Source: Gammaproteobacteria bacterium | GTDB lineage: Bacteria; Pseudomonadota; Gammaproteobacteria; SZUA-229 | Direction of reading: 5' to 3' | NCBI GenBank assembly: GCA_029882215.1 | Contig: JAOULC010000003.1 | Location: forward strand, 1 to 64,000 | DNA: 64,000 bases | Shown here: piece after piece, positions 28,571 to 30,067 of the stretch | Layout: each line of letters opens with the position of its first letter | How positions within the stretch are numbered: the first letter of the stretch is position 1 | The notes under the pieces: generated by a model | Told to the model about the DNA's origin: nothing | Databases searched by the model: none | The model's input: the letters and a program-made list of their open reading frames with translations, nothing else | Position numbers and translations under genes: made by a program

Positions 28571-29605
28571 ATGAAGACATTAATCTCTATTGCTTTACTC
28601 ATGCTCAGCCCTATCATGGTAAATGCCAGCCCAAACGGTCAACAATTATTTGAAAATAATTGCTCGGTTTGCCATGGCACCAAAGGGGGCGGTGGCGTTG
28701 GAATCCCGCTTGCCTTACCTTCATTTATTAATTCAGTTAGTGATAACTATTTAAGAAAAACCATCCGTTATGGCCGGCCCGGGCGCGTCATGCCATCGTT
28801 CAACAATCTGTCAGATGATGAGATCTTATCGATTGTGAATTACATGCGAACCTGGACCGGAAAAAAAGGCAAGACCTTCTCAAAACATAATATTACTGGC
28901 AACCCGCAGGCTGGCGGCAAACTCTTTAACAAACTCTGCATCAGTTGTCATGGTGTCGGTGGAATCGGCGGTGCCGGTACGGGCGTTACTTTTTCGCGGC
29001 CACGTAATTCCCCCATCATCGCACCTTCTTTAAATAACCCCGGCTTTCTCTCCTCGGCTGAGGATGAGTTCATAAAAGAAACATTAGTCAATGGCCGCGC
29101 CGGTACGCCGATGATTTCATACAAACAGTTCGGTTTATCCGATCAGGACATCAACAACCTTGTCAGTTACATTCGTGGTTTTGAAGCGGGTCCATACCCT
29201 TTCAAATCCTATGATACTGAATCTGCCGTGATCAAAGTCGACTCGCCTTACAGCATTGAAGAAACCATTAACAATGTTAAAGATGCCATCATTGGTAAAA
29301 ACTTTAAGCTCATTCGGGTACAGGAACTGAATCAGGGTTTAGTTGAGGCTGGTAAAGAAAATAAAAAATCATACATCATTTATTTCTGCAACTTCAACTT
29401 TCTGAATAAAGCTCTGGCGATAGATCCGCGCGTGGGAATGTTCTTACCGTGCCGCGTCACAGTGATTGAACAAAATGGCAAAGTCAGCATCATCAGCACC
29501 AACCCGCTTAAACTGGCCAGCTTATTTAATAACCATGAACTAAGCGAAGCCTGTAAAGAGATGCACACTATCTACTCAGAATTATTAGAAGAGGCTAGTC
29601 TATAA
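28571..29605 (+). CDS. Di-heme cytochrome c fused to a DUF302 domain
   Basis: 344 residues with a signal peptide (cleavage near VNAS, about residue 19). Two class I cytochrome c domains follow: CSVCH at residues 31-35 with probable distal M74, and CISCH at 123-127 with probable distal M181. Residues about 225-340 form a DUF302-like domain (SIEETINNVKDAIIGKNFKL, then IYFCNFNFLN and FLPCRVTVIEQNG). The product should be periplasmic, receiving or passing electrons; the role of DUF302 is unknown. The stop codon is directly followed by the ATG of a second DUF302 gene. The fusion is the unusual part. Confidence 0.88.
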   Translation: MKTLISIALLMLSPIMVNASPNGQQLFENNCSVCHGTKGGGGVGIPLALPSFINSVSDNYLRKTIRYGRPGRVMPSFNNLSDDEILSIVNYMRTWTGKKGKTFSKHNITGNPQAGGKLFNKLCISCHGVGGIGGAGTGVTFSRPRNSPIIAPSLNNPGFLSSAEDEFIKETLVNGRAGTPMISYKQFGLSDQDINNLVSYIRGFEAGPYPFKSYDTESAVIKVDSPYSIEETINNVKDAIIGKNFKLIRVQELNQGLVEAGKENKKSYIIYFCNFNFLNKALAIDPRVGMFLPCRVTVIEQNGKVSIISTNPLKLASLFNNHELSEACKEMHTIYSELLEEASL

Positions 29606-30067
29606 ATGAAATTTCCTACAGCCATCAGCCGTCTGGCCGGATTATTCATACTGCTCTGCGTTAGCTTTAACAGCTATGCAGATGATTTAATTATGATGCG
29701 TGTTAAACAGAGTTTTCCGGAAACCATGACCAGCCTGCAAATCGCCATCAAAAAAGCAGGCTATACCATCTCCCGTGTGCAACGGGTTGATATCGGCCTG
29801 ACTAAATCCGGTTTCAAAACCGATAAATACCGCGTGGTGTTTTTTGGAAAAGCAGAAGAAGTGGAAACGCTGTTAAATCAGTACCCTGACCTCGCCGCTT
29901 TCCTGCCGTTAAAAATTTCCATCTTTGCAGAAAATAATGACACCATTCTGGTATCCAACAACCCGATAATATTGCAGCGCTACTTCAAACAAATCCCTGA
30001 ACATTACTTTACCCGCTGGGAAAAAGATGTTCAGAAGATATTCAGTCTGGCCAGCATCGAAGACTAG
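29606..30067 (+). CDS. Secreted DUF302 domain protein
   Basis: 153 residues: a signal peptide ending near SYADD (about residue 25), then a single DUF302-like domain with the family pattern (TSLQIAIKKAGYTISRVQRVD, then YRVVFFGKAEEVETLLNQYPDLAAFLPLKISI split across two strands, and ILVSNNPIILQRYF). It starts immediately after the stop of the cytochrome c-DUF302 gene, and the two DUF302 parts align in layout, suggesting partners in one periplasmic complex. Function unknown. Confidence 0.82.
   Translation: MKFPTAISRLAGLFILLCVSFNSYADDLIMMRVKQSFPETMTSLQIAIKKAGYTISRVQRVDIGLTKSGFKTDKYRVVFFGKAEEVETLLNQYPDLAAFLPLKISIFAENNDTILVSNNPIILQRYFKQIPEHYFTRWEKDVQKIFSLASIED

Follow-up and report, generated by a model that had tools for sequence, protein, structure and literature searches.

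A cytochrome c–DUF302 fusion and its constant DUF302 partner gene in Gammaproteobacteria that mostly carry soxB

We analysed a stretch of 64,000 nucleotides (hereafter the window) from a Gammaproteobacteria bacterium (GTDB SZUA-229; assembly GCA_029882215.1, contig JAOULC010000003.1, positions 1 to 64,000). Two adjacent genes on its forward strand, here termed A and B, encode a fusion of two cytochrome c domains with a DUF302 domain, and a secreted DUF302 protein. This arrangement had been described in an initial annotation, the coordinates of which are right, and both its parts are confirmed by Pfam and by fold comparison. The features are listed below. Fractions refer to the window with 80 relatives from public loci (81 sequences), to 45 genomes of the class that carry the full fusion (carriers), or to related, cytochrome-free proteins (A'); the signal peptides of A and B were called by reading the sequence.

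28571..29605, forward strand: gene A, 344 aa, a signal peptide followed by two heme c domains and a DUF302 domain (open reading frame, translation, Pfam, AlphaFold2)
28571..28627, forward strand: signal peptide of A, residues 1-19 (MKTLISIALLMLSPIMVNA), read from the sequence
28661..28675, forward strand: heme c site 1 of A, CSVCH, residues 31-35 (81/81 relatives, 45/45 carriers; Pfam stretch 22-92)
28790..28792, forward strand: Met74 of A, likely axial ligand of heme 1 (81/81, 45/45)
28937..28951, forward strand: heme c site 2 of A, CISCH, residues 123-127 (81/81; 44/45 plus one alignment gap; Pfam stretch 114-202)
29111..29113, forward strand: Met181 of A, likely axial ligand of heme 2 (81/81, 45/45)
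29219..29602, forward strand: A-type DUF302 domain, residues 217-344 (Pfam 256-312; 1q9u match over 217-343, Z 18.1)
29387..29389, forward strand: Cys273, FCN motif of A (81/81, 44/45; present in 1q9u and 1j3m, absent in 7tj1)
29450..29452, forward strand: Cys294, LPC motif of A (81/81, 44/45; present in 1q9u and 1j3m, absent in 7tj1)
29552..29554, forward strand: Cys328, C-terminal helix of A (81/81; 39/45 in the wider survey; 7/7 aligned cytochrome-free A' proteins)
29606..30067, forward strand: gene B, 153 aa, a signal peptide and a B-type DUF302 in which the cysteine pair is absent (open reading frame; Pfam 4.2e-8; AlphaFold2)
29606..29680, forward strand: signal peptide of B, residues 1-25 (ending VSFNSYA), read from the sequence
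29678..30055, forward strand: B-type DUF302 domain, residues 25-150 (1q9u match over 25-150, Z 16.9; 125 columns aligned to the DUF302 of A)

Judged by its sequence, A is a secreted diheme class I cytochrome c with two predicted heme-binding sites. Pfam matched Cytochrome_CBB3 (4.7e-25) and Cytochrom_C (1.6e-22), each over two stretches, together with DUF302 (3e-13; 49.9 bits, against a gathering score of 23), and NCBIfam returned cytochrome matches only, all of them below cut-off. The class I diheme pattern of two CxxCH motifs, each with a downstream Met, is complete in A, with all four elements present in 81/81 sequences; the heme sites are kept in all 45 carriers, the second CxxCH being gapped in one alignment row. 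The initial annotation had proposed M74 and M181 as ligand candidates, and these were well chosen, as both are invariant in the 81 sequences and in the 45 carriers. It had also considered DUF302 as a heme ligand; the invariant Met that each heme domain has of its own makes this unlikely. The two heme domains have the appearance of electron carriers and not of catalytic hemes, so that any catalysis would sit at the DUF302 domain or on a docked partner. The DUF302 domain in the AlphaFold2 model of A (mean pLDDT 86.9, pTM 0.73) matches 1q9u (Z 18.1, 127 residues aligned), 7tj1 (16.6) and 1j3m (14.8), all of them crystal structures of DUF302 proteins.

For B, Pfam again identified DUF302 (33.4 bits, gathering score 23), and no NCBIfam family was matched. 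Folded alone, B gave an AlphaFold2 model with a pLDDT of 92.6 and a pTM of 0.80, which resembles 1q9u (Z 16.9 over 125 residues), 1j3m (15.3) and 7tj1 (15.0), and the DUF302 domains of A and B could be aligned with each other over 125 columns with 97.9% probability. The DUF302 parts of both window proteins thus lie above the Pfam cut-off; across the profile alignments, DUF302 was matched at E<=0.01 in 66/66 A rows (the window and 65 of a non-redundant 70) and in 52/65 B rows (the window and 64 of the 70). No cysteine is conserved in B among the window and its 80 relatives, and the residues that are invariant (81/81) include R32, F37, M41, Q45, Q59, Y75, P94, P101 and E109. At the junction in the window, the TAA of A abuts the ATG of B, as originally noted, and reading through the stop codon of A leads into B in the same frame. 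When an artificial A+B chain, with the stop read as Q, was aligned in MAFFT, five of six settings placed the B rows on the DUF302 of A, and the sixth put roughly half of every A row in the wrong place.

A and B are one two-gene unit. A GTDB genome scan yielded 283 relatives of the fusion, 80 of which were kept, and B was found directly behind A in 80/80 of these public loci. The genes overlap by 4 nt in 73 loci, by 1 nt in six, and abut in one, under a choice of starts that favoured positions -4, -1, 0, 1 or 2. The zero distance of the window, found in one other locus, is therefore the exception and the 4-nt overlap the rule, and this spacing fits translational coupling. In a search for relatives, a DUF302 gene lay right behind A in 30/30 loci, including the window's own and one partial A, and the 4-nt overlap was present in 26, i.e. 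those outside the window's genus. Carriers in a survey of the class had B behind A in 45/45 cases (30 + 15 loci, the latter spanning the most diverged carriers); the sets of 80 loci, 30 loci and 45 carriers overlap in part. A conserved operon extending beyond A/B was dropped, as the next commonest neighbour clusters, in flanks of up to 10 kb, occurred in only 20/80 and 19/80 loci.

We additionally considered a 298-aa double-DUF302 reading frame (L182) as a gene fusion of A and B, and rejected it, as it matched neither the A nor the B profile and has no cysteine pair. This secreted protein (L182:2080-2976, reverse strand) contains two DUF302 domains without the pair and adjoins mobA- and xdhC-like genes, identified by eye.

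Cys273, Cys294 and Cys328 of the A-type DUF302 domain are each present in 81/81 sequences of the window and its 80 relatives. In the wider class survey, the Cys273/Cys294 pair was retained in 44/45 carriers and Cys328 in 39/45; a fully invariant three-cysteine site accordingly holds for the 80 nearest loci and fails beyond them. In only one carrier (G241) does A have none of the three, and soxB is absent from this genome and just one other carrier, a coincidence that is suggestive but a single case. At this locus (L202; G241:C38:25200-27900) gene B is retained behind the cysteine-less fusion. Among the aligned sets, the third cysteine was found in A-type proteins only and is absent from the other DUF302 groups. 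The pair, in contrast, is present by eye in 5/7 DUF302 domains of the host genome, and is not peculiar to cytochromes, since it occurs also in 1q9u, in 1j3m and in a host DUF302 protein without a visible signal peptide (own_C59). We conclude that the CN...LPC pair is an old feature of DUF302, common and not universal. In A it does not form a CxxC motif, and no His outside CxxCH is invariant among the 81 sequences.

We also identified, by eye, cytochrome-free tandem pairs in eight regions of eight other genomes. Each consists of an anchored or secreted DUF302 protein (A'), with the three cysteines in 8/8 cases, followed by a DUF302 protein without the pair (B'); the genes overlap by 4 nt in 6/8 pairs as listed, and a lipobox was seen by eye in five B' proteins. 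Seven of the eight genomes carry the fusion as well, and G172 does not. In one region (L159:6563-10706) the tandem lies downstream of an assimilatory nitrate-reductase-like gene, named by eye, and a similar gene is located about 1.5 kb from a DUF302 gene on contig C82 of the window's host genome (L152).

A tree of 53 hand-picked DUF302 domains, drawn from 13 A/B pairs (the window and 12 of the 80), 8 tandem pairs and 11 others, was inferred with IQ-TREE. A-type domains resolve into one clade (UFBoot 98) and B-type domains into another (UFBoot 96), and in each of the two clades the fusions and the tandem proteins form separate branches (90/72 and 92/84). The separate A and B clades, together with the existence of cytochrome-free tandem pairs, indicate that the A/B pairing predates the present architectures. 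Divergence of A from B before the split into fused and tandem forms is the pattern that a heterodimer would leave, and is consistent with, not proof of, contact between the two domains.

A second fusion of a diheme cytochrome c with DUF302 was identified with Pfam in two loci of two genomes (L184:1544-2650, reverse strand, 368 aa; L165:1470-2588, reverse strand, 372 aa), in which the DUF302 is of the type found in sox clusters. Their cytochrome parts are 56% identical to one another and 28-31% identical to that of the window over about 110 residues, and the one in L184 resembles a cytochrome of a sox cluster (L164; 28% over 190 residues). Their DUF302 domains fall within a six-member clade of sox-type proteins (UFBoot 99), and constraining all cytochrome fusions to a single group gave a tree that was rejected (delta logL 114, AU p=7e-7). 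On these phylogenetic grounds, fusion of DUF302 with a diheme cytochrome c occurred on two or more occasions. The earlier proposal that DUF302 acts outside the inner membrane beside c-type hemes gains support from the signal peptides of both proteins, from the constant unit and from this second independent fusion, and DUF302 homologues do indeed occur with cytochromes.

We investigated the distribution of the fusion in 275 evenly drawn genomes of the class, with carriers defined by a full fusion scoring at least 296.7 bits (next best, 141.7), and found it in 45/275. An above-cut-off soxB was present in 43/45 carriers and 70/230 others (odds ratio 49), RuBisCO (at E<=1e-60) in 41/45 and 93/230 (odds ratio 15), and dsrA in 34/45 and 50/230 (odds ratio 11). 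For ccoN, our control, the values were 38/45 and 105/230 (odds ratio 6.5), the 38/45 being tallied by eye with a best E below about 1e-180 counted as above cut-off for some genomes. Only two carriers are without soxB above cut-off (G091 and G241); 11/45 are without dsrA above cut-off, one of which (G290) has a truncated match, and 70 soxB-positive genomes are without the fusion. Among RuBisCO-positive genomes soxB still separates carriers from others (39/41 against 55/93, p=1e-5); among those with soxB, neither RuBisCO (p=0.12) nor dsrA (p=0.10) adds significantly, all of these p-values being optimistic because genomes were treated as independent.

The host genome contains soxB, dsrA, RuBisCO and ccoN, with soxB about 63 kb from A/B on the same contig. 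Proximity was assessed from listed coordinates (soxB in 43 genomes, dsrA in 34, ccoN in 36 and RuBisCO in 34). The A/B pair lay within 10 kb of a listed soxB copy in 0/43 soxB-positive carriers, on fragmented contigs, and any DUF302 gene did so in 3/43, none of them the A/B pair; DUF302 and sox were on this count rejected as generally linked genes. The same test gave 4/34 for RuBisCO, and 1/36 for ccoN, again not with the A/B pair. Carriers of A/B are thus overwhelmingly soxB-positive, yet A/B is not physically linked to sulfur genes. The sulfur role raised in the initial annotation draws on just two lines of evidence, the co-occurrence with soxB and the conserved cysteine pair.

Beyond the class, a draw of 299 genomes of the phylum contained only two full-length fusions, both within the window's own class, and seven further genomes matched the cytochrome part only; an occurrence of the full-length fusion outside the class was hence rejected for this draw. 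Titles among the 80 loci include Thiobacillus, Thiobacillus denitrificans, Sulfuriferula multivorans, Thioalkalivibrio and Thiohalomonas, and one record (L100) is titled Flavobacteriales, a bin label given here as it stands.

We tentatively favour a reading, whose probability we put a little short of even, in which A and B form a secreted heterodimer that transfers electrons in the periplasm during lithotrophic sulfur oxidation, and in which DUF302 is the site for a substrate or a partner. The DUF302 domains of A and B would pair as a heterodimer, and a sulfur compound, or a partner that carries sulfur, would be bound or oxidised at the pocket or cysteine site of the A domain, B being the structural or regulatory half. 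The two hemes of A would then take up the electrons and pass them to a terminal oxidase, for example cbb3. A more specific proposal, which we consider unlikely, is a novel sulfur-redox enzyme, in which the cysteine pair of A, within the DUF302 heterodimer, is where a small sulfur compound or a (per)sulfide bound to a carrier is oxidised, the electrons going directly to the fused hemes c. Were it true, DUF302 would be a sulfur-handling fold that became connected to cytochromes c on two or more occasions, and the single cysteine-less carrier would also have lost sox.

The strongest rival, itself somewhat unlikely, is that DUF302 is a docking or dimerisation handle only, and that A is an ordinary diheme shuttle put in place by pairing with B, without chemistry at DUF302. 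The invariant Met ligand candidates of both heme domains are typical of electron carriers, B is kept though it has no conserved cysteine, the unit is retained in G241 where A has lost all three cysteines, and the nearest DUF302-free cytochromes adjoin a molybdenum enzyme, all as such a shuttle would predict; a cysteine pair conserved in 81/81 sequences, in 44/45 carriers and in 7/7 A' proteins nevertheless exceeds what a handle needs.

Distinctly improbable, in our assessment, is a role in thiol redox or maturation, in which the DUF302 cysteines would engage in disulfide exchange with thiol proteins of the periplasm, apo-cytochromes among them, and the electrons would go to the hemes, as periplasmic housekeeping in cytochrome-rich cells and not as sulfur catabolism. 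Such a setting is suggested for another DUF302 group by one region (L183:1475-6049), where two proteins of 470-489 aa, each with two CN/CS...LPC-type motifs recognised by eye, flank two TlpA/ResA-like genes for CxxC thioredoxins. This is however a single locus with a different DUF302 architecture, and the cysteine pair of A is not of the CxxC type. The enrichment of ccoN among carriers would fit cytochrome-rich cells as well, but soxB distinguishes carriers much more sharply (odds ratio 49, against 6.5 for ccoN).

We hold it very unlikely that the DUF302 cysteines form a site for copper or some other metal, as part of a metal-dependent oxidase or a respiratory metallochaperone. The conserved Cys set would suit a metal site, and the portion of PMC6515984 available to us lists the Bradyrhizobium DUF302 gene blr5777 beside ccoG and as raised in microoxia; against this, A has no invariant His outside CxxCH, and the single carrier of 36 with DUF302 near ccoN owes this to a gene other than the A/B pair. 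Finally, little probability attaches to A/B meeting a general need of autotrophic, micro-oxic members of the class, the sox link reflecting shared ancestry: RuBisCO is enriched too and no genomic neighbour beyond A/B is widely common, but it is soxB that separates carriers within RuBisCO-positive genomes, and not the reverse.

DUF302 has solved structures and no assigned function in the literature found, which was available in part. Both domain families, and DUF302 genes in sox clusters, were already known; the cytochrome fusion and the constant A/B pair appear to be new, in that the titles, abstract openings and passages covered in the DUF302 literature searched, which leaves most subscription papers outside, describe neither. 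Two matches of that search (PMC10846046 and PMC10412643) concern, in the parts accessible, DUF3025, a separate family. The A/B pair ties DUF302 to electron transfer outside the inner membrane, and the function of the domain becomes testable because it is joined here to a redox chain, has a constant partner and a conserved cysteine pair, and shows a strong link to lifestyle. A/B therefore has a real chance of opening DUF302 function. If the sulfur reading is true, the pair would be an added electron-entry point to periplasmic sulfur oxidation, and would help to explain the role of DUF302 genes in sox clusters.

Compared with known DUF302 proteins (PF03625; 1q9u, 1j3m (TT1751) and 7tj1), A and B score above the profile cut-off and have the same fold, and A shares its CN...LPC cysteine pair with 1q9u and 1j3m, 7tj1 being without it. 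They differ in that the A copy is fused to two hemes c, mostly with a third cysteine, that the B copy is secreted and without the pair, and that A and B are encoded as a constant pair.

The DUF302 protein of sox clusters likewise belongs to sulfur oxidisers and has the same cysteine pair as A. According to the accessible parts of the respective papers, a DUF302 gene lies between soxA and soxB (PMC5037610, PMC5248467), an order found in Thermithiobacillus and Acidithiobacillus with a speculated role in trithionate oxidation (PMC5037610), and between soxF and soxH in several Sulfitobacter (PMC11034169). We found the soxA-DUF302-soxB order in L187 (sox genes besides soxB named by eye), where the DUF302 copy falls outside the six-member sox-type clade in the IQ-TREE analysis. 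A further sox cluster (L164:2419-8148, reverse strand; names other than soxB by eye) has, next to soxB, genes for DUF302, for two cytochromes c, for a multiheme protein and for a rhodanese-like protein; its DUF302 is of the same type as those of L184 and L165, and its cytochrome c genes are separate. Sox-type DUF302 differs from A/B in standing apart from both in the tree and in having its own cytochrome fusion (L184, L165), and no B partner was seen for it.

In thiosulfate dehydrogenase cytochromes of the TsdA/SoxA type, the catalytic heme has a Cys for its axial ligand. In the 81 sequences of A, no Cys other than those of CxxCH is invariant in the heme domains, each of which has its invariant Met instead. 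The SoxA-TsdA profile (PF21342) gave no match to the A of the window at E<=0.1 and matched 3/66 A rows, the best at E 0.003, short of membership, and Foldseek matched A only weakly to TsdA (4wq8; E 0.017, TM 0.20/0.27). Scores against the sulfite dehydrogenase subunits SorB and SorU were likewise below the NCBIfam cut-offs (15.0 against 93 and 16.8 against 100 bits).

With the diheme cytochromes CcoP and QcrC, A shares the Pfam family Cytochrome_CBB3 and weak NCBIfam matches to ccoP and QcrC, and QcrC appeared in the fold search. Its scores, however, are 49.3 bits against a cut-off of 179.95 for CcoP (TIGR00782) and 43.4 against 200 for QcrC, and, unlike these proteins, A is not in an oxidase operon within the window.

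The best-scoring DUF302-free relatives of the cytochrome part of A are diheme proteins with 33-36% identity over about 180-200 aa, and the cytochrome of L173 is 31% identical over 193 aa. These best-scoring relatives adjoin a NapA-like molybdenum enzyme in 11/11 places read (L170-L181), NapA being the best NCBIfam name for the two enzymes tested, both truncated proteins scoring below cut-off. By eye, these regions consist of a NapA-like operon with a CcoP-like diheme cytochrome c, followed by NapG-like genes in 4/5 of the longer regions. They differ from A in having no DUF302 and a molybdenum enzyme alongside, whereas A/B has no such constant neighbour. Their position beside this enzyme indicates that the cytochrome type of A can serve as a dedicated redox partner, and in A that partner seems either to be part of the protein already, as the DUF302 domain, or to bind to that domain.
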